Shown: positions 5,196 through 35,412 of the stretch, piece after piece
How the letters are laid out: each line of letters starts with the position of its first letter
Numbering within the stretch: position 1 is the stretch's first letter
Source: Mitsuaria chitosanitabida ATCC BAA-476 = NBRC 102408
GTDB taxonomy: Bacteria > Pseudomonadota > Gammaproteobacteria > Burkholderiales > Burkholderiaceae_C
DNA: 64,000 nucleotides
Assembly: GCF_001598255.1 (NCBI RefSeq)
Contig: NZ_BCYP01000006.1
Coordinates: 248,001-312,000 of the forward strand
Direction: 5' to 3'
Made by a program: the position numbers and the translations under genes
The notes under the pieces: model-generated
Databases searched by the model: none
The model's input: the letters and a program-made list of their open reading frames with translations, nothing else
What the model was told of the DNA's origin: nothing

Positions 5196-5206
5196 AGGAA
5201 CACGAC

Positions 5207-5941: not shown

Positions 5942-6026
5942 CTCGAACGCTCGAATGGCGGGCGTCCGTCGGACATCGACCGGCGCTCGGACACCCCCGG
6001 ATGAACAGCAAGGATTGGAGCAAGCG

Positions 6027-7827: not shown

Positions 7828-8782
7828 GCGCGTCGCCGCGCGCGGCGCTGACCTTGCCCGTGGCCAGACAGGTCGTCGAGCCGTCGAGCGCCTCGCGCGA
7901 CTGCGCGGTCTCCTTGTGCAGCCAGTCGATGAAGGCGCTGACGGCGGGCGCGTCCCGCGTGCCGGGCCGATAGACGATGTGATAACGCTGCGGCTCCTTG
8001 AGCATGGCCTGCCGCGGCGCGACGCGCACCAGGCGGCCGTCGAGCAGCGCATCGGCCGCCAGCAGCTCGCGCGTCAGGCCGACGCCGATGCCTTGTTCCG
8101 CCGCCTGCAGCAGGATGCCGAAGTCGTTGAAGATCGCGACCGGCACGACCTGGCGCCGCAGACCGGCCTGCTCGAACCACGCTTCCCACTGGCTCGCGTC
8201 GCCCAGCAGCGGCGCCTGCGCGAGCGCCTCCAGCGGCTGCCCGATCAGCTGATGCGCCAGCGCGGGCGAGGCCACCGGCAGCATGGACAGGTCGAACAGC
8301 GGCTCGCTCTCCACGCCCGGCCAGGGCCCCAGACCCTGGCGCATCGCGATGTCGAAGCCCTCGCGCTCCAGGTCGACCAGGCGCGGCGTGGCCTCGATCT
8401 CCAGCGTCACCTCGGGGTGCTGCGCATGCCAGCGGCCCAGGCGCGGCAGCAGCCAGCGCTGCGCGAAGGAGGGCAGCACCGTGACGCGCAGGCTGCGCTG
8501 CTCCACCCCATGCGCGGCGGTCGCCGCGCGCAGGCCCTGGTCGAGCTCCTGATAGGCGCGCTCGACGCCGCGCAGCAAGGCGCCGCCCGCCGCGTTGAGC
8601 ACCACCCGCCGCCCCTGCCGATCGAAGACCGGGAAGCCGAGCTGCAGCTCCAGCGCGCGGATCTGCTGGCTCACCGCGCTGTGGGTCAGGTTCAGCTCCT
8701 CGGAGGCGGCGCGCAGGTTCTGGTGCAGCGCGGCCGCGCGGAAGGCGGCCAGGTACTGGAGCGGAAGGCGGGGCAGGCGCAT
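7793..8782 (-). CDS. LysR-type transcriptional regulator (GcvA-like)
   Basis: A regulator of about 329 residues with an N-terminal winged helix-turn-helix (LQYLAAFRAAALHQNLRAAS, then SAVSQQIRALE) and a LysR substrate-binding domain of the GcvA subgroup. The ATG at 8782 is preferred because it places the LPRLPLQYLAAF helix at the start; an alternative start 36 bases upstream exists. The C-terminus carries about 30 residues beyond the usual domain end and runs into hemW on the other strand. The gene is divergent from the small membrane-protein gene at 8962, a possible target. The effector is unknown. Confidence 0.9.
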   Translation of the reverse strand: MRLPRLPLQYLAAFRAAALHQNLRAASEELNLTHSAVSQQIRALELQLGFPVFDRQGRRVVLNAAGGALLRGVERAYQELDQGLRAATAAHGVEQRSLRVTVLPSFAQRWLLPRLGRWHAQHPEVTLEIEATPRLVDLEREGFDIAMRQGLGPWPGVESEPLFDLSMLPVASPALAHQLIGQPLEALAQAPLLGDASQWEAWFEQAGLRRQVVPVAIFNDFGILLQAAEQGIGVGLTRELLAADALLDGRLVRVAPRQAMLKEPQRYHIVYRPGTRDAPAVSAFIDWLHKETAQSREALDGSTTCLATGKVSAARGDALMPTGTVPADR

Positions 8783-8961
8783 GGGGGAGGGACTCCTTGC
8801 TGGAAAGAATGGCTGCACAAGGAGGCAAGGATATAGCGTTTGGAGGGCGGATGCTGGGCATCTACAGTGACCAACATCGCGACGGACACAGCCTCCCCCG
8901 AGCGCTCCCGCCCCCGGCAGGACCGTCGCGCCGCCTCACCCCCGATGCAGAAGGAGCGACC

Positions 8962-9372
8962 ATGAACGAGCCCGACATCCCCCTCTCCACCCCCGTCCCG
9001 GCGGCTCCCTGCGCGAGCGGCACCTTGCCCGCGTCGGCCTGCTATGCCTACCGGCCCTGGCCGCGCCATCCGGTCATCGGACCGGCCTTGCTGGTGCTGG
9101 TCGCCGTGCTGTCGGCGCTGCTGCTGGTGTCGAACGCGAACGCCTTCAACGACGTCAACGCCGAGCTCCAGATCGCTGCCCGCGAGCAGCGCATCGCCCG
9201 CCAGGAAGCCGAACGCGTGGCCAAGGCCGAGGCCGCCCGCCGCGCCCTGGTGGCGGACGCCGGCGCGCCGCGTCTCCCGCGCGATGCGGATCGTGGCGCC
9301 GGTGCCGAGACCGCCCGGAGCGCGAGCGCCTCGCGCCCGCCGTCGCCGCCTCCCGCCGCCAAGAAGCAGTGA
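8962..9372 (+). CDS. Small single-pass membrane protein of unknown function
   Basis: A 136-residue protein with one clear transmembrane helix (about residues 40-62, VIGPALLVLVAVLSALLLV), then a helical charged stretch rich in Ala, Glu and Arg (EQRIARQEAERVAKAEAARR) that could be a coiled coil, and a disordered Ser/Pro tail ending in PPPAAKKQ. An AAGGAG ribosome binding site lies just before the ATG. I recognise no family. It sits divergent to the LysR gene, with 179 bases between the start codons, and is followed 19 bases later by a SnoaL-like gene. Confidence 0.65.
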   Translation: MNEPDIPLSTPVPAAPCASGTLPASACYAYRPWPRHPVIGPALLVLVAVLSALLLVSNANAFNDVNAELQIAAREQRIARQEAERVAKAEAARRALVADAGAPRLPRDADRGAGAETARSASASRPPSPPPAAKKQ

Positions 9373-9391
9373 TTCAGGAGTGACCCGCCCA

Positions 9392-9793
9392 ATGACCCCG
9401 ACCGATCTGATCCAGGCCCAGCTCGACGCCTACAACGCGCACGACGTCGAGGCGCTGCTGGCGCTCTACGCGGCGGACGCGCGCCAGTACAAGCATCCCG
9501 ACACCTTGATCGCCGCGGGCGCCGACGCGCTGCGTCAGCGCATGAGCGCGCGCTTCGAGGCCTCCCGGCCGCGCGCGGAGCTGCTGCATCGCATCGCCGT
9601 CGGCAACACGGTGATCGACCACGAGCGCATCCACAACCAGACCCCCTCGGGACCGGTCGTGCGCGAGCTGATCGCGATCTACGAGGTGGACATGACCTTG
9701 CCGGGCGCGGCGGGCGGCGAGGATGGCCGCGCCAGGGAAAACGGGCGCATCGTCGGCGCCCGTTTCGTGTTCGGCGAGGAAGTGCCCGCCTGA
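9392..9793 (+). CDS. SnoaL/NTF2-like domain protein
   Basis: A 133-residue protein with the cone-shaped NTF2-like fold signature: DLIQAQLDAYNAHDVEALLALYAAD at the N-terminus, then the LRQRMSARFEASRP region and a beta-sheet half ending in GARFVFGEE. Family members are small ketosteroid-isomerase-type enzymes or ligand-binding proteins; nothing here fixes the substrate. It follows the small membrane protein by 19 bases and may share its transcript. The fold assignment is good, the function is open. Confidence 0.8.
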   Translation: MTPTDLIQAQLDAYNAHDVEALLALYAADARQYKHPDTLIAAGADALRQRMSARFEASRPRAELLHRIAVGNTVIDHERIHNQTPSGPVVRELIAIYEVDMTLPGAAGGEDGRARENGRIVGARFVFGEEVPA

Positions 9794-9805
9794 CGTGACC
9801 GGGCC

Positions 9806-9827
9806 GGACCGCGCGGGAGCGCGGTCC
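9806..9827. terminator. GC-rich hairpin between convergent genes
   Basis: A 9-bp perfect stem, GGACCGCGC against GCGCGGTCC, with a GGGA loop in the 43-base gap between the SnoaL-like gene and cheB. No T-run follows on either strand, so termination is plausible but not certain. Confidence 0.45.
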
Positions 9828-9836
9828 GCGCCGGCG

Positions 9837-10940
9837 TCACACCCGGTTCAATGACATGCCGGCCGTGCTGCGCAGGCGCTCGATCAATCGCGTCGCGATC
9901 TGCTGCAAGGGCAGGACCTCGTCGGCGGCGCCGGCGTTGATCGCCTCGCGCGGCATGCCGAAGACCACGCAGGTGGCCTCGTCCTGGACCAGGTTGTAGG
10001 AACCCGCGTCCTTCATCGTCTTCATGGCCTTGGCGCCGTCGGCGCCCATGCCGGTCAGCATGATGCCCAGCGCGTTCTGGCCCACGACACGCGCGGCCGA
10101 GTTGAACAGCACTTCCACCGACGGCTTGTGGCGGTTCACCGGATCGCCGTCCTGCACGCGTGCGATGTAGTTGGCGCCGGAGCGCTCCACGCTGAAGTGC
10201 ATGCCGCCCGGGGCGATGTAGCCGTGGCCGGGCAGGATCCGCTCGCCGTCCTGGGCTTCCTTGACGCGGATCTTGCACAGGCCGTCCAGGCGCGCCGCGT
10301 AGCTGCGGGTGAAGCCGGGCGGCATGTGCTGCGTGATGCAGACCGCCGGGCAGTCGGCGGGCAGGTTGATGAGCACGTCCTTGGTCGCCTCGGTGCCGCC
10401 GGTCGACGCGCCGATGAAGATGATCTTCTCGGTGGACAGACGGCCCAGGCTGGCGATCGGGGAGGCGGGCTTGAGCGGCGGCGTCGCGCCGCCGGTCGCG
10501 GCGGCCGGCGCGGCGGTGGGCGCGTGCAGGCGGCGGATCTGGGCCTTGGCGGCGATGCGGATCTTGTCGGTGATGTCCTGCGCCAGCGCGCGGATGCCGT
10601 CGGCCACGCCGATCTTGGGCTTGGCCACGAAGTCCACCGCGCCCAGCTCCAGCGCCTTGAGCGTCACCTCGGCGCCGCGCTCGGTCAGCGTGGACACCAT
10701 CACCACCGGCATCGGTCGCAGGCGCATCAGGCGCTGCAGGAAGTCGAGGCCGTCCATCTTGGGCATCTCGACGTCCAGCGTGATCACGTCGGGGTTGAGG
10801 TTGCGGATCATCTCGCGCGCCGCGAGCGGGTCGCTGGCCGCGCCGATGCACTGCATGTCGGGCTGGCGGTTGATGATCTCGGTCAGGATGCTGCGCACCA
10901 GCGCGGAATCATCGACGACGACGACAGTGGTCTTGGCCAT
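9837..10940 (-). CDS. cheB: Chemotaxis protein-glutamate methylesterase/deamidase CheB
   Basis: A 367-residue response-regulator enzyme. Residues 1-120 form a receiver domain with the acidic pair DD at 10-11, the phosphoacceptor Asp56 in [13 protein letters not shown] and the Lys of FVAKPK. After a Pro/Ala-rich linker (about 135-165) comes the methylesterase domain with the catalytic triad visible as Ser in GASTGG, His in TQHMPPGF and Asp in GMGADGA. It removes methyl groups from chemoreceptors when phosphorylated by CheA, giving adaptation. It follows cheD by 61 bases. No cheA or cheW lies in the window. Confidence 0.97.
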
Positions 10941-11001
10941 TTCTTCTTACTCCTCGTACTTCTGTACTTCTTCCAGGGGCTCCCCGGGTTCCGTCGCGCG
11001 C

Positions 11002-11673
11002 TCAGAACAGGTCGATCGAGCCACCGCTGCTGGCCACCGGCTGCGCGCGCTGCGCCGCGGCCTTGTCCTGCTGCACCAGCGCGTCGGTGTTGGTCGGCGC
11101 CAGGCGCTTGACCATCGCCTTGCCGCTCCTGGGCAGGAAGCAGACCTTGCGCGGATAGACGTCCATCACGTCCTTGGAGACGATGGGGATGCGCTCGAGC
11201 TTGAGGAAGTCGATGACGAAGTTGGTGTTGCGCTCGCCGACGTTGATCGTGTTCATGCCGGAGATGACCGCGCCGCCGCCAAAGATCTTGGCTTCCATGC
11301 GGCTCTTGGCGGCGCCGCGCTTCATCATCTCGTTGATCAGCAGTTCCATCGCGAACGAGCCGTAGCGGCCCGAGTCGCCGTGACCCTCGGGCAGCATGAA
11401 GTGGTTCATCCCGCCGATCTGCGCGTGGCGGTCCCACAGGCAGGCGGCGATGCAGGAACCCAGCGTGGTCATCACCAGCAGGTCGTCGTTGTCGACGAAG
11501 TACTCGCCGGGCAGCACCTTCACGGCGGCGTTCTTGAAGTGCGCGTCGTAGAAGAAGAACGAGGCCTCGCCGTTCTTGCGCGACACCGTCTTGAGCTGGG
11601 CCACGCGTGCCGCGCCGGCGCTGGCCAGCGCCGCGCTTTGCTGCATGGCGGAGGAGGCGGAGGACAGGGTCAT
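11002..11673 (-). CDS. cheD: Chemoreceptor glutamine deamidase CheD
   Basis: A protein of about 223 residues that deamidates glutamines on methyl-accepting chemotaxis proteins. The active-site cysteine is in TLGSCIAACLWD and the histidine in GGMNHFMLPE, the family's catalytic pair. It has an N-terminal extension of about 35 residues and a C-terminal tail of about 30 residues rich in Ala and Gln, ending GGSIDLF. The ATG at 11673 gives full coverage; a second ATG at 11646 is possible. It lies 11 bases after cheR and 61 bases before cheB, the usual cheR-cheD-cheB order in betaproteobacteria. Confidence 0.95.
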   Translation of the reverse strand: MTLSSASSAMQQSAALASAGAARVAQLKTVSRKNGEASFFFYDAHFKNAAVKVLPGEYFVDNDDLLVMTTLGSCIAACLWDRHAQIGGMNHFMLPEGHGDSGRYGSFAMELLINEMMKRGAAKSRMEAKIFGGGAVISGMNTINVGERNTNFVIDFLKLERIPIVSKDVMDVYPRKVCFLPRSGKAMVKRLAPTNTDALVQQDKAAAQRAQPVASSGGSIDLF

Positions 11674-11684
11674 GGGGTGTTCTT

Positions 11685-12551
11685 TCAGACGCGCTCGTAG
11701 ATCGTCTTGCCGCGCAGGCGGAAGAGATCGCGGGAATCGGTGAAGTTCTCGGAATGACCGACGAACAGCAGACCGCCCGGGCGCATCACCTTGTGGATGC
11801 GCTCCAGCACCTTGCGCTGCGTCGGGGCGTCGAAATAGATCATCACGTTGCGGCAGAACACGACATGGAAGGGCTCGCCCAGGTTCCAGCTCGTGTTCAT
11901 GAGGTTCAGCGTCCGGAACTCGATCATGCGCGCGAGTTCGGGCTTCACGCGGATGCGGCCCTCGTTGGCGCCCGTTCCCTTGAGGAAGAATTGACGCAGA
12001 CGCTGCGGAGAGAGCCCGCGCGACTCGGCCGCGTAGACGCCGCGGCGCGCGGTGTTGAGCACGTTGGTGTCGATGTCGCTGCAGATGATCTGCACGCCGG
12101 AGTTCGCGCCCAGCGACTCCTGGCAGGTCATCGCGATGGAGTAGGGCTCCTCGCCGGTGGAGGCCGCGCAGCACCAGATGCGGATCGGCTTCCCCTGGAG
12201 CGTCTTGAGGTCGTCCGTGAGTGACTGGAAGTGGTGGTCCTCGCGGAAGAAGCTGGTCAGGTTGGTGGTCAGGCAGTTCACGAACTCCTGCCACTCCTGG
12301 TCGCCCTGCGGCCCCGTCACGCCCTCGAGCCACTGCAGGTAGCTGGCGAAGCTCTTGTGGCCGGTGTCGCGCAGCCGGCGCGAGAGCCGGCTGTAGACCA
12401 TGGCGTGCTTGCCATCGTGCAGCGAGATGCCGGCGTGCTGGTAGATCAGCTGCCGCACGCGGTCGAAATCCGCCCGGCTGAAGCTGAACTCGTGATCGAT
12501 CGCCTCGACGGGAGACGAAGCCGGAACGGAAGCCGGTTGACCTGGGCGCAT
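11685..12551 (-). CDS. cheR: Chemotaxis protein methyltransferase CheR
   Basis: A 288-residue SAM-dependent enzyme that methylates glutamates on chemoreceptors. The N-terminal alpha domain begins FSFSRADFDRVRQLIYQHAG, followed by TNLTSFFRE, the SAM-binding WCCAASTGEEPYS and the catalytic-domain motif FCRNVMIYFD. The ATG at 12551 precedes the CheR domain by about 20 residues; the frame stays open far upstream only because it runs antisense to the GGDEF gene. It is the first gene of cheR-cheD-cheB and is divergent from the diguanylate cyclase gene. Confidence 0.96.
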   Translation of the reverse strand: MRPGQPASVPASSPVEAIDHEFSFSRADFDRVRQLIYQHAGISLHDGKHAMVYSRLSRRLRDTGHKSFASYLQWLEGVTGPQGDQEWQEFVNCLTTNLTSFFREDHHFQSLTDDLKTLQGKPIRIWCCAASTGEEPYSIAMTCQESLGANSGVQIICSDIDTNVLNTARRGVYAAESRGLSPQRLRQFFLKGTGANEGRIRVKPELARMIEFRTLNLMNTSWNLGEPFHVVFCRNVMIYFDAPTQRKVLERIHKVMRPGGLLFVGHSENFTDSRDLFRLRGKTIYERV

Positions 12552-12719
12552 GGGGCTATTGGACTTCTTGATGGGGGATGCCGGGGCACCGGGTAAGCCG
12601 CCATTGTCGGCAATCGCTAGTTTGCGTGCTAGTCGCCGTTTTGATGTGTGAAAGAGGTGGGGTAACCGGCTCTTTTCTGCACGCTCATTCGAGGGGAAGC
12701 CGCTAGACTTCGCCGGAAA

Positions 12720-13466
12720 TTGACCTGTCTTGCCTCGGTCCGCCCCTTGGAACATCCGCAAAGTCTCATTGCCGCGCATCACTTGCGCCTGGACCTGGCC
12801 CTGCAGCTGCTGCAGCAGGCCGGGGCGATGCTGCCCGACGCGGAGCCGTACTCGGAGGCCTGGTTGCAGGGCATCCTGGACGCGCTGTGCGACCTCTCGA
12901 GCAAGGACGCGTTGACCGGACTGGTCAACCGCCGCAGCTTCGAGATGGCCCTGGGCCGCGAGGTCGACCGGGTGGCACGGTCCGGCGAGCCGGCCTTGCT
13001 GCTGGTGCTGGACATCGACCACTTCAAGGCGGTCAACGACACGCATGGCCACGCGGCCGGTGATCAGGTGATCCGCGCGGTGGCCGGGGCGATCAGTCAG
13101 ACGGTCCGGCCGATGGACACGGTGGCCCGGGTCGGCGGCGAGGAGTTCGCGATCATTCTTCCCAACTGCCCGACCTCGGTCGGCGTGGTGGTGGCGGAGC
13201 GGATCCGGCAACGGGTGGAGGCGATGGCCATCAGCGTCGCCACCGGCGTGGACGCGCTGCGCTGCACGATCAGCATCGGCGGGGCGTTCGCGCCGCAGTG
13301 GGTGCGGTCGTCGACCCTGATCTGGACGGAACGTGCCGACCGTCAGCTGTACCGGGCCAAGGCCGAGGGACGCAACCGCGCCTGCCTCGAGAGCCATGTG
13401 GACTCCCTGGTCAGCGCCGAGGAAAAAGGCATGTTGTTCGCAGTAACGCAACAGGATAGTGAATGA
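12720..13466 (+). CDS. Diguanylate cyclase (GGDEF domain)
   Basis: A protein of about 248 residues with an N-terminal helical region of ~60 residues and a GGDEF domain that makes cyclic-di-GMP from two GTP. Visible motifs are DALTGLVNRRSFE, the metal-binding DIDHFKAVNDTHGH, the active site GGEEF and, five residues before it, an RxxD inhibitory site (RPMD), so product feedback is expected. No transmembrane helix is seen. The start is uncertain: the longest frame begins at a TTG at 12720 and no ATG lies before the domain. Its stop overlaps the next gene's ATG (ATGA), coupling it to the FlhG-like ATPase. Confidence 0.9.
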   Translation: MTCLASVRPLEHPQSLIAAHHLRLDLALQLLQQAGAMLPDAEPYSEAWLQGILDALCDLSSKDALTGLVNRRSFEMALGREVDRVARSGEPALLLVLDIDHFKAVNDTHGHAAGDQVIRAVAGAISQTVRPMDTVARVGGEEFAIILPNCPTSVGVVVAERIRQRVEAMAISVATGVDALRCTISIGGAFAPQWVRSSTLIWTERADRQLYRAKAEGRNRACLESHVDSLVSAEEKGMLFAVTQQDSE

Positions 13467-24472: not shown

Positions 24473-24865
24473 GGGGAATCCTCTTGGACTGCGGGAAATG
24501 GGGACGCCGGGTCGCGTGAAGCACCTGGGGTGGTGGTCGGCGTCCGAGGTGCCGAGGCGTCGACCGGACTTGCCGGCGGCCTCGCAAAGGGTGCGCGCAT
24601 CGTAGGCAGGCGGGGGACGCGTCAAGCACCGATGTGGCGTGCATCCACGATGCCAACGTGCGTTCTGGCCGCTTCCAGCCCCTTCGTTTCTTCAGCTGAC
24701 TGAAGCTTGTTGCGGCGATGATGCAGCGTCCCGCAGACGCCCTGCGAACTACCAAAGACTTCCGGTGAATTGGCAAAGAAGCGTCGCTCCGAAGACGCGT
24801 TCACGACCATCCCTCGACCTTCCCACGACGCTTCGACGATGGCGCCCCACGACGGCGCGATGCCC
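24473..24865. other. 393-base divergent intergenic region, autotransporter / two-component system
   Basis: No gene is supported here. It should contain the promoters of both the autotransporter and the response regulator gene. A short inverted repeat, CTTCAG-CTGA-CTGAAG, lies at 24690-24705, roughly mid-region, and could be an operator. The stretch 24650-24760 is visibly AT-richer than the coding flanks, as expected of a promoter. Confidence 0.5.
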
Positions 24866-25525
24866 ATGCACATTCTTCTGATCGAGGACGACCTCGACCT
24901 GGGTCGCGCGCTGCAAGCCGCGCTCCGGCTCGAAGGCCACAGCAGCGAATGGCTGCGCCGCGCCAACGACGCGCCCCACCAGCTCGATCCCGGCGCCCAG
25001 GACGCCGTGCTGCTCGACCAGACCTTGCCCGGCGGCGACGGCCATGCGCTGCTGACGCGCTGGCGCCGGCAGGGCAGCGCGGTGCCCATCATCGTGATCA
25101 CCGCGCGCTCCGCCTTGCAGGACCGGCTCGCCGGCTTCGACGGCGGAGCCGACGACTACGTGGTCAAGCCCTTCGAGATGCCCGAGCTCATCGCCCGCCT
25201 GCGCTCGGTCCTGCGCCGCAGCGCGCACCAGGCCAGCGACACCTGGCAGCTGGGCGCGCTCACCATCGAACCCCTGCGCCGGCGCGTGCTGCTGGACGGG
25301 GCCGAGCTCGCGCTCTCGCCGCGCGAGTACCAGCTGCTGGTCGAGCTCGCCCGCGAGCGCGGCAACGTCGTCGCCAAGCATGTGCTCGCGCAGCGCCTGT
25401 CGCCGCTGGGCGATCCGCTGGACTTCGGGACGCTGGAGGTGCACCTGGCCAACCTGCGGCGAAAGATCGGCGCATCGCGCATCGGCACCGCGCGCGGCGT
25501 CGGCTACTGGCTGGAATGCGCATGA
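24866..25525 (+). CDS. OmpR/PhoB-family response regulator
   Basis: A 219-residue two-component regulator. The receiver domain begins MHILLIEDD, with phosphoacceptor Asp51 in AVLLDQTLPGGDG, the Thr/Ser of VIVITARS and the Lys of YVVKPFEMPE; the C-terminal winged helix includes LSPREYQLLVELARERGNVV and the recognition part LEVHLANLRRKIG with GVGYWLE. It is of the QseB/PmrA/TctD type. The ATG at 24866 begins the receiver domain exactly; upstream in-frame starts would add an unrelated leader. Its stop overlaps the kinase start (ATGA). Divergent from the autotransporter gene, which may be a target. Confidence 0.93.
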   Translation: MHILLIEDDLDLGRALQAALRLEGHSSEWLRRANDAPHQLDPGAQDAVLLDQTLPGGDGHALLTRWRRQGSAVPIIVITARSALQDRLAGFDGGADDYVVKPFEMPELIARLRSVLRRSAHQASDTWQLGALTIEPLRRRVLLDGAELALSPREYQLLVELARERGNVVAKHVLAQRLSPLGDPLDFGTLEVHLANLRRKIGASRIGTARGVGYWLECA

Positions 25526-26883
25526 GGGGCTGGCTGCAACCGACGCTCTCGCGTCGGCTGATCGGCGCGCTCATGGTGGCCGTGCTCTTCTTCGCCGTCG
25601 TCGTGCTCGCGCAGGACCAGCTCGACATCGACGAGCAGATCGCCACCAACCCCGGCGTGCGGCAGACCGGTCTGCCGCTGGCCGCGGAGCTCGACGAGGT
25701 CGACGATCCGGTGGAGGCGGCGCGCATGGTCGACCACCTCGCGCGCGTGTTCAACCGCCAGCGACAACCGTCGGAGGTCCAGACCGGCCGACTGCTGTTC
25801 CAGCTCTACGACCGCTCGGGCCGGCTGCTCTACGCCTCCGCCGACGCCGATCCCATCGCGCGGCCGGGCGTCGGCGAGCAGGTCCTGGCCGGTCGCAACC
25901 ACTGGACCTGGCGCCACGACGGACCGCGCTGGTCGCTGCGCATCGCGGAGCCGGCCATCTCGCGGGGCGCCTTGTTCCGCTTCTCCTGCTGGGAGCTGGT
26001 CAAGGTGATGCTGCCGGCCTTGCCGCTGATGCTGCTGCCGATCTGGCTGGCGGTGCGCACCGGCATGCGGCCCTTGCGCCGGTTCACGCGCCGCATCCGC
26101 GAGATGGATGCCGGCCAGGCGCTGGCGCCGCTCGGCATGGACCTGCGCTACGCCGAACTGCGGCCGCTGGGGCAGGCCTTCGACACGCTGCTGCTGCGCC
26201 TGCGCGAGCGCCTGCAGCGCGAGCAGGCCTTCGTCCACGACGCCGCGCACGAGCTGCGCACGCCGCTGGCGGTGATCGCCGCGCAGGCGCATGTGCTCGC
26301 GCACGCGCGGGAGCCGGCGGCGCGCGCCGAGGCCTCGGCGGCGATGTCGTCCGCGATCGCGCGCAGCGCCCATCTCGCGCAGCAGCTGCTGGATCTGGCC
26401 GCACTCGACGGGCGCGCGTCCGCGCCGCCCGATGTCGTCGACCTGTCGATCCTGAGCGCGCAGCTCCTGGCCGCCCAGGTCGGTCTTGCGCGAAGTCGGG
26501 ACATCGCGCTCTCGCTGGAGGCTCCCGAGAAGCTGCCGGCGCGGCTGGATCGCGCGGCCTTTCAGTCCATCCTTCAGAACTTGCTGGACAACGCGCTGCG
26601 CTATGTCCACGAGGGCGCGCGGATCGAGATCGAGCTGAGTCCGATCGCGTCCGATGGCCTGCGCCTGGTCGTCGCCGACGACGGCCCGGGCATCGACGCA
26701 CAGGACCACGCCAGGATCTTCGATCGCTTCTGGCGCGGCAGCGGGCACGACCAACCGGGCTCGGGACTCGGCCTGGCGATCGTGCGACAGGCCGCGACGC
26801 GACTGGGCGGACACGTCAGCGTGGGGACGGGCCTGGACGGGCGCGGTATCCGCTTCGAGTTGACCGTGCCGGCTTCGGTGTAG
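25522..26883 (+). CDS. Sensor histidine kinase (QseC/TctE-like)
   Basis: A 453-residue membrane kinase. Transmembrane helix 1 is near residues 10-30 (LIGALMVAVLFFAVVVLA), a periplasmic sensor of ~130 residues follows, and helix 2 is near 160-178 (VMLPALPLMLLPIWLAV), then a HAMP-like linker. The phospho-accepting His243 is in HDAAHELRTPLAV, and the ATPase domain has the N box NLLDNALRYV, DDGPGID and GSGLGLAIV. It presumably phosphorylates the regulator encoded just upstream, whose stop codon its ATG overlaps; an ATG six bases earlier is an alternative. The stimulus is unknown. A close paralogue lies at 33838. Confidence 0.93.
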   Translation: MRGWLQPTLSRRLIGALMVAVLFFAVVVLAQDQLDIDEQIATNPGVRQTGLPLAAELDEVDDPVEAARMVDHLARVFNRQRQPSEVQTGRLLFQLYDRSGRLLYASADADPIARPGVGEQVLAGRNHWTWRHDGPRWSLRIAEPAISRGALFRFSCWELVKVMLPALPLMLLPIWLAVRTGMRPLRRFTRRIREMDAGQALAPLGMDLRYAELRPLGQAFDTLLLRLRERLQREQAFVHDAAHELRTPLAVIAAQAHVLAHAREPAARAEASAAMSSAIARSAHLAQQLLDLAALDGRASAPPDVVDLSILSAQLLAAQVGLARSRDIALSLEAPEKLPARLDRAAFQSILQNLLDNALRYVHEGARIEIELSPIASDGLRLVVADDGPGIDAQDHARIFDRFWRGSGHDQPGSGLGLAIVRQAATRLGGHVSVGTGLDGRGIRFELTVPASV

Positions 26884-27001
26884 CGATCGCGGCCGGCCCT
26901 GGCATCGGGTCCGTCCGCGGAAGGGGGCGATCTTGGGCGTTCATTAAGGCGCGCGTTTCCAGAATGAGCGCGTCAATCCCGACAGCCTTCCGAAAGCACC
27001 T

Positions 27002-27586
27002 GTGACGTCGACTTCGCATCGCCTCCTCGCGATCCTCGCGCTGACCCTGACCGCCTCCGCCGCCAGCCCGGCATGGGCCCTCGAGCCCTACGTCGGCCTC
27101 TCGCTCGCCACGCCCGGCGAGGCCCGTCTGCAATCCGGTTCAAGCGCCGCGATCAAGAACAGCAACAACCCGACCGCCGTCCGGCTCTACGGTGGCCTGA
27201 AGCTCACGCCCGAGTGGTCGGTCGAGGCCGGCTACGGAGCCTTCGGCAGCTGGCGCTTCACCGATCCCGCCTCGGGGCCGCTGGACCGGGCGCGCCTCTC
27301 GTCGAACGTCTTCACGCTCGCGGGCCGCTACACGCTGGCGCTGGACGACACCTTCTCGGTCTTCGGCAAGGCCGGCGTGGCGCTGAACCGCTTCCGCTTT
27401 CGCGACAACCAGGGCCAATCGATCAAGGACAACATCACGCGGCCGATGTGGGGCCTCGGCGTCGAGGCGAAGCTGAGCGACCACCTGTCCATCCCGATCG
27501 AGTTCGAGTCCTTCGGATCGAGCCGCACGCAGCTCGGCCGCTTCAACCAGCGCAAACTGGAGATCGGCGCGCGCCTGCAGTTCTGA
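27002..27586 (+). CDS. Outer-membrane beta-barrel protein (OmpA/OmpW-like small barrel)
   Basis: A 194-residue secreted protein starting at GTG with a clear signal peptide (LLAILALTLTASAASPAWA). The mature part shows alternating hydrophobic strands typical of an eight-stranded barrel: EPYVGLSLA, AVRLYGGLKL, WSVEAGYGAF, VFTLAGRYTLAL, SVFGKAGVALNRF and a C-terminal IGARLQF ending in phenylalanine. No peptidoglycan-binding domain follows the barrel. Function is not indicated beyond outer-membrane location. It lies 118 bases after the histidine kinase and is convergent with the next gene. Confidence 0.82.
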   Translation: MTSTSHRLLAILALTLTASAASPAWALEPYVGLSLATPGEARLQSGSSAAIKNSNNPTAVRLYGGLKLTPEWSVEAGYGAFGSWRFTDPASGPLDRARLSSNVFTLAGRYTLALDDTFSVFGKAGVALNRFRFRDNQGQSIKDNITRPMWGLGVEAKLSDHLSIPIEFESFGSSRTQLGRFNQRKLEIGARLQF

Positions 27587-27628: not shown

Positions 27629-28846
27629 TCACATGAAGTTCCGCGTGTGCAGCCCCGCCAGCCGCTCGGCTTCCGCCGGCGCGAAGCCCAGGCGCGCCAG
27701 CCGCGCCTTGCGGCCGACGGCCATCTCCGCCTGCAGGCGCTGGACCGCCTCGTGGCCGCGCGCGATCGCGGCGGGCGCCAGCGATCCGGCCGCCAGCAGC
27801 ACCAGCGCGTCGAAGACGTGCTCGTTCAGGCCGGCGGTCGCTGCGAGCTCGTCGTAGCGGGTCTCGATGGCGTTCCTCAGCGTGGCGACATAGCCCGGCG
27901 AGGTCGCCACGCGATGCTCGACATGCGCCATCCCGAAGGCCACATGACGCGCCTCGTCGCGCGCGGTGAGGCGCGCGATCTGACGCGTCACAGGATCGGG
28001 CGCGTGCTCGTGCAGGAAGTTGAGCAGGTTGACGAAGCTGCCCTCGCCGAGCACCGACAGCAGGAAGGTCGCCTGCGAGAAGTCGTGCGCCTCCAGCAGG
28101 GTCTTCAGCGAGGCCTGCCCACCCGCGCTCGAGCGCGCCGGCCCGCGGCCGCGCAGCGTCGCGCGGCGCGTGAAGACCTCGACATGCCGAGCCTCGTCCG
28201 CGCACTGCAGCGCGAGCAGCTGCATCACCTCCCGGTAATGGGGGTGGATGCGGCCCAGATGCCGCGCCGGCACGAGCAGCGCGGCGTTCTCGTTCTCGAT
28301 CAGGTAGGTCATGAGCTGCACGACCGCGGCCTCGATCTCGTCGGGCGGCACGGTCGGGTCGGCCCAGGCGATGGCCTGTTCCGGATCCCACTGCGCGGCC
28401 GCGGCCTGCCGGTAGAGCGCGCCCGCCGTCGCGGCCCACAGCTCGTCGCGGCGCGTCAGCGTGAAGTCGAAGCGCGGGCCGCCGGCCTCGACGGTCGCGC
28501 CACGCGCGGCGAGGCCCCACGCGAGCGAGGCCTCGGCCGCCGGCAGCTCGCCCTCGCCGAGCAGCGCCGGGCCGGTGGACAGCGCGTCGCGCCATCGGCC
28601 GTCCGCCTGCGCCGAGCGGGTGATCCAGGCCTCGCACCGGCCATCGGCGCGTTCCTCGACGCTGAGCTCGTGCCCCTGATGCCGGCACCAGGCCGCCAGG
28701 TGCAGCTGCCACGCCGGCGCGCGGCCGCGCACGCGCAGCACGTCGCCGGGCGCGACCTCGTCCAGCGCGCGCCGCACCAGCAGCAGCGCACCCTGGTCGA
28801 GCCCCAGCGCCTCAATATCGATAGTCGGCGGCGAGGATGCGTCCAT
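27629..28846 (-). CDS. Ferritin-like di-iron protein with degenerate TusA-like N-terminal domain
   Basis: A 405-residue protein. Residues ~8-65 (IDIEALGLDQGALLLVRRAL to CRHQGHELSVEE) align by pattern with TusA/SirA sulfur-carrier folds, but the catalytic Cys-Pro motif is absent. The rest is a ferritin-like four-helix domain with two sets of iron ligands: IENENAALL plus CADEARHVEVF, and VLGEGSFVNLL plus ARDEARHVAFG. Such carboxylate-bridged di-iron centres serve in oxygenases, N-oxygenases and oxidative-stress proteins. The ATG at 28846 overlaps the PhnD-like gene by 35 bases. Third gene of a unit with the flavoprotein at 29728. Substrate unknown. Confidence 0.75.
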   Translation of the reverse strand: MDASSPPTIDIEALGLDQGALLLVRRALDEVAPGDVLRVRGRAPAWQLHLAAWCRHQGHELSVEERADGRCEAWITRSAQADGRWRDALSTGPALLGEGELPAAEASLAWGLAARGATVEAGGPRFDFTLTRRDELWAATAGALYRQAAAAQWDPEQAIAWADPTVPPDEIEAAVVQLMTYLIENENAALLVPARHLGRIHPHYREVMQLLALQCADEARHVEVFTRRATLRGRGPARSSAGGQASLKTLLEAHDFSQATFLLSVLGEGSFVNLLNFLHEHAPDPVTRQIARLTARDEARHVAFGMAHVEHRVATSPGYVATLRNAIETRYDELAATAGLNEHVFDALVLLAAGSLAPAAIARGHEAVQRLQAEMAVGRKARLARLGFAPAEAERLAGLHTRNFM

Positions 28847-29672
28847 CGGCGGCATAGAAGGCCTCGTCATCGACCGCGCGCGCCAGCAGCGCATAGCCGC
28901 TGGTGCGGCCGGGCCGCCAGGCGCGCAGGCCCTCGAGCTCCAGCAGCGGTCGGACCTGGGGATCGTCCCAGCGCATGGACAGCAGCAGCTCGGTGAAGCG
29001 CGCGAGCGCCGGCGCCGGCGCGCCGGGGCTGGTCGTGAAGTTGCAGTGGTCGAAGAGACCGGTGGTGGCGAGGATCCGCGTGCCGCCGGCGGGCAGCGTG
29101 CCGTCCAGGCCGAAAGCCAGGTGGTTGCCGTCGATCAGGCAGCAGGCGTCGACCTCGCCGGCGAGCATCGCCTTGGCGGCGTCGCGCTCGCCGCCGATGT
29201 GGTCGCCATGCTTGCCGCCCAGCACGTCGAAGCGCCGCACCTGGAAATCGCGTCCGCCGACCAGCCCCTGCTGGCGCAGGTGGTCCAGCGGGATCAGCGT
29301 CGCCTGCGGCGAGTCGATCGCGCCCACCGCGAGCGTGCGCCCTCGCAGGTCGCTCACCGCGCGCAGCGGCGAGTCCTGCCTCACCACGATCACCGAGCGC
29401 AGGTCGCAGTCGGTGTCGCGCATCGCGATCGCCTCGACGGCGACACCGCGCGCGGCGGCGATGCGGCGCGCGCGCTCCCAGGCCAGCGGCGAGTTCCAGG
29501 CCAGATGGATCTGGCCGTCGAACTGCGCCTGGACCTGGCGCTCGTAGTTGGAGAAGAGCAGGTAGTCGAAGGCCAGGCCATGTCCGGCGAACCACGCCTT
29601 GAAGCCTTCCCAGATCGTGACCACCTTGGGCGCGTAGGCCACGGCCCCCATCAACAAGGGTTCTGATTGCAA
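28812..29672 (-). CDS. PhnD-like phosphate/phosphonate-binding-fold protein without signal peptide
   Basis: A 286-residue protein with the PhnD/SsuA-type periplasmic-binding fold: LLMGAVAYAPKVVTIWEGF, then FDYLLFSNYERQVQAQFDG, an aspartate-rich DTDCDLRSVIVVRQDSPL hinge region and LRGRTLAVGAIDSPQATLIP. Unlike transport proteins of this fold, it has no signal peptide and no lipobox, and no ABC permease or ATPase lies beside it, so it is probably cytoplasmic, either a sensor or an enzyme-like binding protein. It lies 55 bases after the flavoprotein gene and overlaps the di-iron gene by 35 bases, implying a shared function. Confidence 0.78.
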   Translation of the reverse strand: MQSEPLLMGAVAYAPKVVTIWEGFKAWFAGHGLAFDYLLFSNYERQVQAQFDGQIHLAWNSPLAWERARRIAAARGVAVEAIAMRDTDCDLRSVIVVRQDSPLRAVSDLRGRTLAVGAIDSPQATLIPLDHLRQQGLVGGRDFQVRRFDVLGGKHGDHIGGERDAAKAMLAGEVDACCLIDGNHLAFGLDGTLPAGGTRILATTGLFDHCNFTTSPGAPAPALARFTELLLSMRWDDPQVRPLLELEGLRAWRPGRTSGYALLARAVDDEAFYAADGRILAADYRY

Positions 29673-29727
29673 GTGCGTCTCCCTGGATCGGTCGCGTCGT
29701 CCCGGGCCTCGTCGAGGCCGCGGGCGC

Positions 29728-30843
29728 TCAGAACAGCGGCAGGCCGGTGACGGCCTTGCCGATGAAGTCGTACAGCACGTCCGAGGTCGGCCCCATCACG
29801 CTGGCCGCGCGCGCGTCGCGGAACAGGCGCTCGATGCCCGCTTCCTTGCGGAAGGCCGCGCCCCCGCACACGCGCATCGCGATGTCGGTGACCTCCAGCG
29901 CCGTCTCGGCCGCCGCGGCCTTCACCTCCAGCACCCGCAGCATGGTGTCGGGCCGTCCCGCGGCGATCGCGGCGATGGTGTCCTGCAGCAGCGTCCCGGC
30001 CATGTCGGCCTTGATGCGGCCGCGCGCGAGATAGGCGCGGATCGTCGGCAGGTCCGCCAGGGAACTCTCGAGGTGCTGCAGCCGCGTCTGCCCGACGTGG
30101 CCGGCCGCGCGCATGATCGCGCCCTCCATCAGCCCGACCGAGCAGGCCGCGCTCAGCACGCTGAACCAGGGCAGCACCACGCCCATCATGGTGTCGAAGC
30201 CGTGGCCGTCCTCGCCCAGGCGCCTGTCGGCCGCGATGAGGACCTCGGTCGCGGTGATCGGCGTCGACGCATTGCCGCGCAGCCCCAGGCCGTCGAAGCC
30301 GCCGGGCTGCACCAGGCCGTGCGTGCGCGCGTCCACCAGCCACAACGTGCTGGCGCCCTCGGCGGCCAGCGGCCGGCTCGACCAGACGTAGCTGTCGGCC
30401 TCGAAGGCGCTGGTGACCCAGCTCTTGCGCGCGTCCAGCATCACCTGCGCGCCCGTGCCGCGGGCGGTCCCGGCCGGCGCCCAGAAGTGGCTGCGCGAGG
30501 CGGCCTCGGAGAAGGCCAGCGTGCTCAGGTGCCGGCCGGCGGCGATCTCGCGGCGCACGGCCTCGGGCCCCTGGGCCTCGATCACGGCGGCGGCGCAGTA
30601 ATGCATGCACACGACCATCGCGGTGGACGGGCAGTCGCGGGCGATGCGGCCGACGACCTCGGCGGCCTCGCGCAGGCCGGCGCCCTGGCCGCCGACGGCG
30701 GTCGCGGAGACCAGCCCGAGCAGGCCGGCGCGACCCAGCGCGTCGATGGCCTCGCGCGGGAAGCGGCCCTCGCGGTCGGTGCGGATGGACAGCGGTTCGA
30801 TGACGTCGCGGACGACGACGTCGGCGGTGTCGAGATGGCTCAT
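29728..30843 (-). CDS. Acyl-CoA dehydrogenase-like flavoprotein
   Basis: A 371-residue flavoprotein of the acyl-CoA dehydrogenase superfamily. The N-terminal helical domain (FPREAIDALGRAGLLGLVSA), the central beta domain (STLAFSEAASRSHFW, KSWVTSAFEADSYVW) and the C-terminal helical domain with CGGAAFRKEAGIERLFRDAR are all present. It resembles the SfnB/DszC-like monooxygenase branch about as much as true dehydrogenases; the catalytic Glu position is not certain by eye. It is first in a three-gene unit with a PhnD-like protein and a TusA/ferritin fusion, and has a long, structured 5' leader. The physiological substrate is unknown. Confidence 0.85.
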   Translation of the reverse strand: MSHLDTADVVVRDVIEPLSIRTDREGRFPREAIDALGRAGLLGLVSATAVGGQGAGLREAAEVVGRIARDCPSTAMVVCMHYCAAAVIEAQGPEAVRREIAAGRHLSTLAFSEAASRSHFWAPAGTARGTGAQVMLDARKSWVTSAFEADSYVWSSRPLAAEGASTLWLVDARTHGLVQPGGFDGLGLRGNASTPITATEVLIAADRRLGEDGHGFDTMMGVVLPWFSVLSAACSVGLMEGAIMRAAGHVGQTRLQHLESSLADLPTIRAYLARGRIKADMAGTLLQDTIAAIAAGRPDTMLRVLEVKAAAAETALEVTDIAMRVCGGAAFRKEAGIERLFRDARAASVMGPTSDVLYDFIGKAVTGLPLF

Positions 30844-32105: not shown

Positions 32106-32266
32106 GCGGCCGAGGCCGTCCCGCTGGTCGGCACGGCCGGACAGGCCGGTGGGACGGCGCCGCGCGGGAGGTCCGCGCCGCGTACCCCGTCCCGACGACG
32201 CGCGCGAGGCGGCGCCGTCAGGCGCCGGTGGCAGACTGGGCGCCGCCGCAATCACCAGGGGCCGTC

Positions 32267-33754
32267 ATGAGCGATTCCTTCGACGCCATCGTCATCGGCG
32301 CGGGCCAGTCCGGCCCGCCGCTGGCCGAGCGCATGTCCCGGGAGGGCTGGCGCGTCGCCGTGATCGAGCGCTCGCGCGTGGGCGGCACCTGCGTGAACAC
32401 CGGCTGCATCCCGACCAAGGCGCTGGTCGCCAGCGCCCATGCGGCCTGGGTCGTGCGCGAGGCCGCCCGCTGGGGCGTGCGCGCGACCGAGGCGTCCGGC
32501 GTGGACCTGGCGGCCGTGATGGCGCGCAAGGACCGCATCTCCGGCAAATCGCGGCAGAACGTCGAGGCCTGGCTGCGCGGCATGGCGAATGTCGAGCTGG
32601 TCCGGGGCCACGCCCGCTTCATCGACCCGCACACCCTCGAGGTCGACGGCCGCCGGCTGCGCGCCGACCGCTTCTTCATCAACGTGGGTGGCCGCCCCGC
32701 GCAGCCCGGCGTGGAGGGGCTGGACAGCGTCCCCTGGCTCACCAACGCGTCGATCATGCGGCTCACCGAGCTGCCCCGCCATCTGGTGGTGGTCGGCGGC
32801 AGCTACATCGGGCTGGAGTTCGCGCAGATGTTCCGGCGCTTCGGCTCGGCCGTGACCGTCGTGCAGCGCGGACCGCAGCTGGTGCCGCGCGAGGACCCCG
32901 ACGTCGCCGAGGCGCTGCGGGCGCTGCTCGAGGAGGAGGGCATCGCCATCCGCACTGGCGCCGAGTGCGTGCGGCTCGCGCCGGCCGCGGGCGCCAGCGG
33001 CGGCGATCGGGACGGTCCCGGTCGTCTGGGGCTTCCCGCCGGCCCGTCGCCGAGCGGCGACGGCGTCAGCGCCGACGCGCAGGCCGGCGACATCGCGGTG
33101 CACGTCGACTGCCAACGTGGCGATCCGGTGCTGCGCGCCAGCCACGTGCTGGTCGCGACCGGCCGCCGACCCAACACCGACGACCTGGGTCTGGAGCAGG
33201 CGGGCGTGCAGCTCGACGACCGGGGCAACATCGTCGTGAACGACCAGCTCGTGAGCAGCGTGCCGCACATCTGGGCCCTGGGCGATTGCAACGGCCGTGG
33301 CGCCTTCACGCACACGTCGTGGAACGATTTCGAGGTCGTCGCCGCGAATCTCTTCGACCGTGAATCGCGCGGCGTCGGGGATCGGCTGGTGACCTATGCG
33401 CTCTACACCGATCCGCCGCTGGCGCGCATCGGGATGAGCGAGCGCGAGGTGCGCGCCAGCGGCCGCCCGGCGCTGATCGGCACGCGGCCGATGACGCGCG
33501 TGGGCCGCGCGGTGGAGAAGGGCGAGGACAAGGGCTTCATCAAGATCCTGGTCGACCGGGAGACCCAGGCCATCCTCGGCGCCAGCATCCTGGGCGTGGA
33601 CGGCGACGAGGCCATCCACTCGCTGCTGGACGTGACCGTGGCCCGGCGGCCCTGGACCGAGGTCATGAAGGGCGTGCGCATCCATCCGACGGTCAGCGAG
33701 CTGCTGCCGACCGTGTTGCAGTCGCTCCAGCCGCTGCCTCCCCCGTCGCCCTGA
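32267..33754 (+). CDS. FAD-dependent pyridine nucleotide-disulfide oxidoreductase, mercuric reductase-like
   Basis: A 495-residue flavoenzyme. It has the FAD-binding AIVIGAGQSGPPLAERM, the redox-active disulfide GGTCVNTGCIPTKAL, the NAD(P)H-binding VVVGGSYIGLEFAQMF, the second FAD motif HIWALGDCNG, and the dimerisation domain with GVRIHPTVSELLP. The N-terminal HMA domain and C-terminal vicinal cysteines of true MerA are missing, so mercury reduction is unlikely; it belongs with the MerA-like FAD-containing oxidoreductases. A low-complexity Gly/Ala/Asp-rich insertion of about 35 residues (AAGASGGDRDGPG to SADAQAGD) interrupts the domain near residues 243-278. Confidence 0.87.
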   Translation: MSDSFDAIVIGAGQSGPPLAERMSREGWRVAVIERSRVGGTCVNTGCIPTKALVASAHAAWVVREAARWGVRATEASGVDLAAVMARKDRISGKSRQNVEAWLRGMANVELVRGHARFIDPHTLEVDGRRLRADRFFINVGGRPAQPGVEGLDSVPWLTNASIMRLTELPRHLVVVGGSYIGLEFAQMFRRFGSAVTVVQRGPQLVPREDPDVAEALRALLEEEGIAIRTGAECVRLAPAAGASGGDRDGPGRLGLPAGPSPSGDGVSADAQAGDIAVHVDCQRGDPVLRASHVLVATGRRPNTDDLGLEQAGVQLDDRGNIVVNDQLVSSVPHIWALGDCNGRGAFTHTSWNDFEVVAANLFDRESRGVGDRLVTYALYTDPPLARIGMSEREVRASGRPALIGTRPMTRVGRAVEKGEDKGFIKILVDRETQAILGASILGVDGDEAIHSLLDVTVARRPWTEVMKGVRIHPTVSELLPTVLQSLQPLPPPSP

Positions 33755-33837: not shown

Positions 33838-35412
33838 ATGCGACTGCGCCTGCTCGAGGACCGCCTGAATCCGATACGCGCGCTCCTGCGGCCGACGCTG
33901 ATGCGCCGGCTGCTGGGCGTGCTGATGGCGGCCTTCGCGCTGGTGGGGTTGGTGCTGGTGACGCTGAACTACCTGGACTTCAAGGCCGAGGTGGTGCGCA
34001 AGCCGGCGGTGCTGGTCCTGGCCCGCGAGATGGCCCTGGTGCTGGCGCAGTTGCCCGAGGCCGAGGCGCCGACGCTGTCCCGCGTCTTCGCCGAGCGCCT
34101 GGAACACCTGCGCGGCGAATCCGGCATGCGGCTGGAGCCGGTCGAATGGCAGGTGCGGCGCATCCCCGGGGCGCAGGCGGACACCGGCACCGTGGTCTTC
34201 GCGACGTCGCGCATCGGCGCGGCGATCCCGATGCCCGGCCGGGAGCCTGGCACGCTCGACATCGGCGGCCAGCCTTACTGGTTCGGCCAGTCCGAGGCGG
34301 GACCCTGGCGGGTCGTGATCGCCGAGCGCTGCCTGGACGACTCGATCGTGGTCGAGGCGATCTGGAAGGAGCTGGCGGGCTCGCTGCTGCTGGCCTTCCC
34401 GCTGGTGGTGCTGCCGGTGTGGATCGCCGTGCGGCGGGGCATGCGGCCGCTGACGCAGCTGGCCCGCGAGGTGGAGGGCCGCGACGCGCAAGACCTGGCC
34501 CCGCTGGGCTTCACGCCGCGGCACGATGAACTCGTACCGCTCGTGGGCGCTTTCGACGGCCTGCTGGCGCGGCTGCGCCAGCAACTGCAGCGCGAGCGCT
34601 CCTTCGTGCATGACGCCGCCCACGAGCTGCGCACCCCGATGGCCGTCGTCGCGGTGCAGGCGCATCTGCTCGCGCAGGCCCGTGGCGACGAGGACCGCCG
34701 CGCGGCCGCCGAGGCGCTGCACCGCGCGCTGGAGCGGGCCGCGCATCTGAGCCGGCAGCTGCTGGTGCTGGCGGCCGTCGACGACAGCCGGGGCGCGGTG
34801 GCGGAACCGGTCGATCTGGCCGAGCTCGCGCAGGCCCGATTGGCGCAGTCGGGACCGGACGCAGCGCGTCGCCGGATCGACATGGCGCTCGACGCGCCAG
34901 CGGCGATGCCGCTGATCGCCGATCGCATGGCGCTGGAATCGATCCTCGGCAACCTGATCGAGAACGCGCTGCGCTACGTGCCGCCCGGCGGTCAGGTGTC
35001 GGTGACGATCTCGATCGGGTCGGGCGCGAGCCGCGGCACGCCAGACAGCGGTGGTGATCGCAGCGATCCCGGTGATCGCGGTGATCCCGGAGATCGCCGC
35101 GGCGGGGGCCTCCGCGGTCTCGGGGATCGCCATGACCACGTGGCGGGGGGCGACGGCGACCAGGTGGTGCTCGTCGTCGCCGACGACGGGCCGGGCATCG
35201 CGCCGGATCGCCGCGAGCAGGCCTTCGAGCGCTTCTGGCGCGGTCAGCAGGCCGGCGAGATCAGCGGGACCGGGCTGGGCCTGGCCATCGTGCGCGAGGC
35301 CGCGCGACGCCTGGGCGGGGAGGCGCTGCTCGAGGACGGCCTCCCGCGCGCCGACGGCGGCGTGGGCCTCGCCGTTGTCGTGCGCTGGCCGCGGGTGACG
35401 CCCGCGGGCTGA
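33838..35412 (+). CDS. Orphan sensor histidine kinase
   Basis: A 524-residue membrane kinase. Transmembrane helices are near residues 25-45 (LLGVLMAAFALVGLVLVTL) and 182-200 (LAGSLLLAFPLVVLPVWIAV), flanking a periplasmic sensor. His262 in HDAAHELRTPMAV is the phosphoacceptor; the N box is NLIENALRYV (~372), DDGPGIAP is near 449 and GTGLGLAIV follows. Between N box and DDGPGI it carries an insertion of about 45 residues with a GD[RP] triplet repeat encoded by 9-bp units. It closely resembles the kinase at 25522 in architecture but has no adjacent response regulator. Confidence 0.9.
   Translation: MRLRLLEDRLNPIRALLRPTLMRRLLGVLMAAFALVGLVLVTLNYLDFKAEVVRKPAVLVLAREMALVLAQLPEAEAPTLSRVFAERLEHLRGESGMRLEPVEWQVRRIPGAQADTGTVVFATSRIGAAIPMPGREPGTLDIGGQPYWFGQSEAGPWRVVIAERCLDDSIVVEAIWKELAGSLLLAFPLVVLPVWIAVRRGMRPLTQLAREVEGRDAQDLAPLGFTPRHDELVPLVGAFDGLLARLRQQLQRERSFVHDAAHELRTPMAVVAVQAHLLAQARGDEDRRAAAEALHRALERAAHLSRQLLVLAAVDDSRGAVAEPVDLAELAQARLAQSGPDAARRRIDMALDAPAAMPLIADRMALESILGNLIENALRYVPPGGQVSVTISIGSGASRGTPDSGGDRSDPGDRGDPGDRRGGGLRGLGDRHDHVAGGDGDQVVLVVADDGPGIAPDRREQAFERFWRGQQAGEISGTGLGLAIVREAARRLGGEALLEDGLPRADGGVGLAVVVRWPRVTPAG
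35053..35097 (+). repeat. Five degenerate 9-bp tandem repeats inside the orphan kinase gene
   Basis: Five consecutive units of the form GGTGATCGC / GGTGATCCC (one starts AGC, one GGA) are in frame and encode GDR-SDP-GDR-GDP-GDR. They form the core of a low-complexity insertion in the ATPase domain. Since 9 is a multiple of 3, copy-number change would lengthen or shorten the loop without a frameshift. Confidence 0.85.

Follow-up and report, generated by a model that had tools for sequence, protein, structure and literature searches.

In a 64,000-nucleotide stretch of the Mitsuaria chitosanitabida ATCC BAA-476 = NBRC 102408 genome (contig NZ_BCYP01000006.1, positions 248,001 to 312,000; hereafter the window), we examined three closely packed genes of the minus strand, which encode an acyl-CoA-dehydrogenase-like flavoprotein (ACD), a substrate-binding-type protein of the PhnD fold (SBP) and a fusion of a TusA-like domain with a ferritin-like di-iron domain (FUS). 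We propose, tentatively and with less than even confidence, that this trio is a cytosolic, O2-dependent accessory module of selenium metabolism, which possibly also accepts sulfur analogues. The features lie in the window as follows:

29728 to 30843, minus strand: ACD, acyl-CoA-dehydrogenase-like flavoprotein of 371 residues, Rv1679/FadE16-like, without the usual catalytic glutamate
28812 to 29672, minus strand: SBP, leaderless PhnD-fold protein of 286 residues, TTG start, Rv1680-like
27629 to 28846, minus strand: FUS, 405 residues, TusA-like domain joined to a ferritin-like domain of the di-iron oxygenase type
28613 to 28828, minus strand: TusA-like domain of FUS (residues about 7-78), no CPxP motif, Trp-Cys at residues 53-54
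27902 to 28342, minus strand: di-iron helix bundle of FUS (residues 169-315), carrying the di-iron ligands
28812 to 28846, minus strand: overlap of the SBP and FUS genes, 35 bases

The coordinates agree with the tight unit (a 55-base gap between ACD and SBP, then the 35-base overlap) described in the original prediction. The TTG start of SBP is preceded by AGGGAG, and for FUS the ATG at 28846 was preferred on the basis of homologue alignment, the longest open frame beginning at 28894. When genome contigs were scanned with an alignment of SBP, 401 relatives were confirmed, and the 80 best loci were kept and examined; genes in these loci were called with a simple custom scorer, not with a standard gene finder, and alignments A4, A5, A6 and A7 covered 44, 36, 27 and 36 of the 80 loci, respectively. 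The three-gene order was conserved: FUS sequence stood behind SBP in all 80 loci, in 75 of them as a complete frame, in four cut by the contig end (L042, L092, L095, L116) and in one as a C-terminal fragment (L115), and ACD stood in front of SBP in 71. Among the latter, the gap between ACD and SBP was below 30 bases in 66, which places the 55 bases of the window at the wide end. With the single exception of L069, the match to FUS started somewhere between about 140 bases upstream of the SBP stop and 66 bases downstream of it. The earlier description of the three proteins as folds that rarely meet did not hold, given 401 SBP relatives in one scan. In L115 (Paraburkholderia nodosa, 10891-11217) the C-terminal FUS fragment alone was matched, as if the gene were broken, and in L069 (9998-10858), a metagenome-assembled genome, the SBP reading frame is broken into two.

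The evidence for a link to selenium came from the surroundings of these loci. Genes for SelA, SelB, SelD or SelU lay inside the fetched flanks of 27 of the 80 loci, which fall under 10 of the 25 genus labels taken from record titles. A rough model with random positions would predict about 0.9 such loci; related genera are not independent. The gene orders were several: selA-[trio]-selB (for example L055), selA-selB-[trio] (L093), [trio]-selD (L109, L110, L120), senA/senB-[trio]-selD (L119), and selA and selD facing away (L071). Since these orders differ by lineage, they argue against one inherited accident. In an even sample of 299 genomes of the window's family, 12 carried FUS; at least six of these 12 have selB or selD no more than about 1.2 kb away from FUS, and three of these six genomes are also those of L043, L046 and L079. 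SelD was present in 49 of the 51 FUS-type genomes tested.

A further indication came from the relatives of SBP. When 398 Pseudomonadota genomes were searched with the Rv1680-type profile (matches with E up to 1e-20, with no more than six candidates scored in each genome), all 20 of the other matches were 50-84% identical to the selD-adjacent ATP-binding cassette (ABC) binding protein of L056, and by similarity they are of the kind described by TIGR04553, the putative selenate ABC transporter binding protein. The window genome has its own protein of this type, which scored 400 bits against TIGR04553, whereas SBP reached 33 bits (cut-off 250) and differs in having neither a leader nor adjacent transporter genes.

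SBP matched the Pfam family Phosphonate-bd (PF12974) with 95 bits and the Rv1680-type family NF049985 with 224.6 bits, under the cut-off of 400. Its predicted structure had a mean predicted local distance difference test score (pLDDT) of 94.9 and the top matches in the Protein Data Bank (PDB) were PhnD and PtxB, with AioX and ArrX further down the list. These matches could point to phosphonate or phosphite metabolism, as the fold alone suggests, but we consider this highly improbable: the nearest ABC-type cousins of SBP are selenium-linked, and the recurrent neighbours recognisable by sequence were formate dehydrogenase (fdh), sel and selenate-type ABC genes, in a survey that included no systematic search for phosphonate genes. 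The gene neighbourhood indicates selenium rather than the phosphorus-containing substrate that had been considered earlier. The lack of an export signal, in turn, was borne out, as the window SBP has no room for a leader: there is no in-frame start codon upstream of the TTG, and conserved sequence begins eight residues in. Across the 80 SBPs, 3-12 residues preceded the GAVAY motif, given the chosen starts. An in-frame start lies further upstream in 47 of the 80 genes, so the absence of a leader there rests on the chosen start; the other 33 have none. The GKHGD and His-Cys motifs were invariant in all 43 aligned rows.

The fdh genes in the neighbourhood could also mean that the trio has an accessory role for the formate dehydrogenase that contains selenium, or for its molybdenum cofactor. 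Both fdhG and fdhE were found within the flank in 23 of 80 loci each, and an FdhD-like open frame, named from its sequence alone, follows FUS in L093, L097 and L103. We regard this as very unlikely, since L071, L109, L110, L119 and L120 have sel genes and no fdhG or fdhE match, and some of the trio genomes have no SelB match.

The third protein, FUS, met the Pfam TusA cut-off (31 bits against 28.6) and came close to that of AurF (28.5 bits against 29.6; the homologue of L119 reached 31.6 bits, and gave no Pfam TusA match at E 0.01). The AlphaFold2 model (pLDDT 88.9) placed strands and helices over residues 8-76 in a TusA-like order, and long helices at residues 169-197, 202-230, 256-281 and 285-315. 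In TusA, the catalytic cysteine lies in a CPxP motif. The aligned site held no Cys in any of 46 rows of FUS (A 27, E 8, Q 6, G 2, T 2, S 1), and the following residue was G in all of them, while the Trp-Cys motif was well kept (W in 46 and C in 43 of the 46). FUS thus resembles the sulfur carriers TusA and YedF in the secondary structure order of its N-terminus and in a Pfam score just above the cut-off (for the window protein), but differs from them in lacking the catalytic cysteine and in being joined to a di-iron domain. The ligands of the latter (E184/E186, D217-E218-x-x-H221, E268 and D297-E298-x-x-H301) were invariant in the same 46 rows, so that both the degenerate TusA-like domain and the di-iron ligands of the original prediction were upheld. 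The structural matches in the PDB included R2lox, aldehyde-deformylating oxygenase and VlmB, at 10-21% identity over the 50 matches listed, and in a sequence-profile search a VlmB homologue alone passed E 0.01. With the AurF/VlmB, R2lox and aldehyde-deformylating oxygenase group, the bundle has in common the fold and the ExxH-type ligands; the N-terminal TusA-like domain sets FUS apart.

ACD contains Pfam Acyl-CoA_dh domains (Acyl-CoA_dh_1, 67 bits). It had been described as close to SfnB and DszC, but its top NCBIfam model was Rv1679/FadE16 (NF049984), with 401 bits under a cut-off of 600, followed by acryloyl-CoA reductase with 116 bits; SfnB and DszC gave 71.5 and 48.6 bits. The column aligned to the catalytic glutamate of the short-chain acyl-CoA dehydrogenase type held A in 32, G in one and S in one of the 34 aligned rows, and therefore ACD is probably not a classical dehydrogenase. 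The folds of the three proteins together with this missing residue would suggest that the pathway is oxidative.

The family assignments connected the trio with the Rv1679-Rv1680-Rv1681 cluster (NF049984, FadE16; NF049985, SBP-like; NF049973, MoeX-type radical S-adenosylmethionine (SAM) protein). By family, ACD and SBP of the window correspond to the first two members, both under the curated cut-offs (401 of 600 and 224.6 of 400 bits), while the third protein is a radical-SAM protein there and FUS in the window. The 80 loci do not sample the radical-SAM type, because they were kept for closeness to the window SBP. On a Mycolicibacterium vanbaalenii plasmid, ACD, SBP and the radical-SAM gene occur in this order, and all three proteins score above the family cut-offs; on a Rhodococcus opacus plasmid, a partial radical-SAM match stands behind ACD and SBP. 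In two genomes of Pseudomonadota (G273 and G257), ACD and SBP are followed by an Rv1681-type radical-SAM gene on the opposite strand; the two radical-SAM proteins are 96% identical, and that of G273 (L030) passes the Rv1681 model with 498 bits. In the class of G273, this type was found in one of 240 genomes, which was G273 itself. The ACD and SBP of Miltoncostaea oceani are closer to those of the window (57% and 63% identity), and its cluster has an Rv1681-like radical-SAM gene without the TusA part, at 225 bits below the cut-off, together with other radical-SAM and glycosyltransferase-like genes.

In a tree of SBP (22 of the 80 loci, the window and L032, with eight of the 20 outgroup rows left out), the Miltoncostaea protein, whose cluster has the radical-SAM gene and no FUS match, grouped with the FUS-type rows (support 99/98), and a single clade of the five radical-SAM-type rows, when these were forced together, was not rejected (approximately unbiased test, p 0.066). 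The di-iron and radical-SAM forms may be alternative third parts of one kit; the tree does not settle this. On the Miltoncostaea plasmid (L039, 524-14847), selB-selA-selD are followed by genes for DM13, DoxX, carboxymuconolactone decarboxylase, radical-SAM, glycosyltransferase and DUF2064 proteins, ACD, SBP, DUF2515 and radical-SAM/SPASM proteins, and the stretch is possibly a larger selenium-related cluster. In L030 (2530-10847) and L031, glycosyltransferase, radical-SAM/SPASM, TIGR04282-type and nucleoside-phosphorylase-like genes lie beside ACD, SBP and the Rv1681-type gene.

Biosynthesis of a selenium compound is the main rival to selenium release. The trio would then be a module making a small selenium- or sulfur-containing molecule or carrier, with the SBP-fold protein acting as an enzyme and not as a binder. 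Precedents for SBP-fold enzymes are MqnA and MqnD in menaquinone synthesis, which have radical-SAM partners, and THI5. Such a role would be in line with the invariant K/H/D and His-Cys motifs of SBP, with the fact that, in two distant lineages, Rv1681-type relatives cluster with genes for DUF2064, glycosyltransferase and radical-SAM/SPASM proteins, and with the selenoneine genes senA and senB that adjoin the trio in L119; but L119 is the only one among the 80 loci with senA/senB matches, and SenB was found in just 17 of 63 genome handles (under which at least three genomes are counted twice, with two handles each) and not in the window genome. We consider this biosynthetic role rather unlikely; a role in selenoneine alone was rejected on the same SenB counts. 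The L119 stretch itself (Hydrogenophaga aromaticivorans, 4370-13135) carries a gene for a selenate-type ABC binding protein, an EgtD-like gene and the senA and senB matches, followed by the trio (ACD, SBP, FUS) and by selD.

Several observations weigh against the proposed selenium module or against its relation to the radical-SAM type. No sel gene lies near the trio in the window; in this genome, fdh, selA, selB and the selenate-type binding protein are on contig C33 and selD is on C17. Likewise, 53 of the 80 loci have no sel gene in the fetched flank. Most genomes of the window's family have SelD (273 of 299), so its co-occurrence is uninformative there, and all 12 FUS genomes would often be positive by chance. 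In the family of the L069 genome (Caulobacter), the co-occurrence was weak, with SelD in four of five carriers tested against a background of 73 in 149, and SelD was absent from both radical-SAM-type genomes tested. SelB scored above 400 bits in just 36 of the 63 handles, and above its cut-off in 38; a role in selenocysteine alone was rejected on these counts. The link between TusA and the radical-SAM proteins is weak as well. The N-terminal TusA-like match of the G273 protein (E 0.0045) is below the Pfam cut-off, the M. vanbaalenii radical-SAM protein gave no Pfam TusA match at E 0.01, and a profile comparison of three Rv1681-type proteins with FUS, which aligned 74 N-terminal columns at E 2.6e-4 with a shared Trp-Cys, had a probability of just 42. 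Finally, nine loci have no ACD: L057 and L088 have nearly no upstream DNA, and the other seven (L058, L060, L061, L062, L064, L066 and L069) are from Caulobacteraceae, where upstream DNA is present and neither an ACD match nor sel genes nearby were found. The surroundings of these SBP-FUS pairs are varied, with a rhodanese/UPF0176-type gene directly in front in L066 and, by likeness, in L069.

The same pairs could speak for a general unit of organosulfur or xenobiotic oxidation, whose closeness to selenium genes would be secondary. They adjoin other metabolic genes (an amidohydrolase and a nitroreductase by Pfam in L064, and further oxidoreductase-like genes so named from sequence), and this explanation would also accommodate the radical-SAM-type genomes without SelD and the weak likeness of ACD to SfnB, DszC and 3-sulfinopropanoyl-CoA desulfinase. 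It is, however, at odds with the several distinct sel arrangements and with the kinship of SBP to selenium-linked binding proteins, and we consider it rather unlikely.

FUS gave no match among 15 genomes of the same genus, and none in a search of plasmids at E 1e-5. The right flank (window about 32200-32990) was matched in 14 of the 15 relatives, and the left block (24770-27586), among the matches listed, in one genome only (G013), as one long match on a contig that differs from that of the G013 right flank. None of the 15 offered a clean empty site, and none of the matches listed covered the trio. A lineage-specific gain is likely on these comparisons, and the trio is probably patchily distributed and horizontally gained. 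To its left, the block contains response-regulator-like and histidine-kinase-like genes and an outer-membrane beta-barrel gene (the last assigned by Pfam), and to its right a second histidine-kinase-like gene lies at 33838-35412; the regulator and kinase names rest on sequence.

We found no publication describing the trio and no paper giving the Rv1679-Rv1680-Rv1681 cluster a function, in a search that left most subscription journals and all preprints outside. The claim of an undescribed pathway needs qualification in that named, uncharacterised kin exist, the Rv1679, Rv1680 and Rv1681 families. Orphan SelD is associated with an isochorismatase-like protein, an ABC ATPase and a cysteine desulfurase-like protein in a section of PMC5029168, and the first two are also named in a section of PMC9312934. 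The terms acyl-CoA and phosphonate do not occur in the main texts of these two papers or of PMC5322559. Rv1680 is listed as a putative phosphonate transporter component in one part of PMC8562490.

How the proposed selenium module would work can be sketched as follows. SBP, as a leaderless cousin of the selenium-linked ABC binding proteins, would hold in the cytosol a small acidic compound of selenium or sulfur, either an oxyanion or a seleninic or sulfinic acid; the GKHGD and His-Cys motifs would presumably sit at its pocket or close to it. ACD and the di-iron half of FUS would oxidise an organoselenium or organosulfur substrate and break its C-Se (or C-S) bond, the TusA-like half may serve as a docking or hand-over domain, and the freed selenium would pass to SelD. 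This oxidation of a small acid, with release of selenium for SelD, is suggested by a cytosolic acid-binding fold and two proteins predicted to handle O2, in a trio that often adjoins selenophosphate genes. The third place would be filled in related bacteria by a radical-SAM protein, which in some of them has a TusA-like N-terminus; this suggests a radical step for which either O2 or SAM can supply the power. On the whole, it is possible, though doubtful, that the trio represents a trait of selenium use that has not yet been described, a route inside the cell, driven by O2, by which selenium is released from an organic compound or installed there, and in which the radical catalyst has been swapped between a radical-SAM enzyme and a TusA-joined di-iron oxygenase.

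If this is true, bacterial selenium metabolism would gain an oxygen-dependent step, and a selenium-linked binding protein in cytosolic form would be given a place in a pathway. A swap between a radical-SAM and a di-iron enzyme would restrict the likely reactions to a radical or an oxygenase step, and the trio would offer a way into an uncharacterised cluster that mycobacteria carry too, as on the M. vanbaalenii plasmid, and whose family names come from M. tuberculosis.

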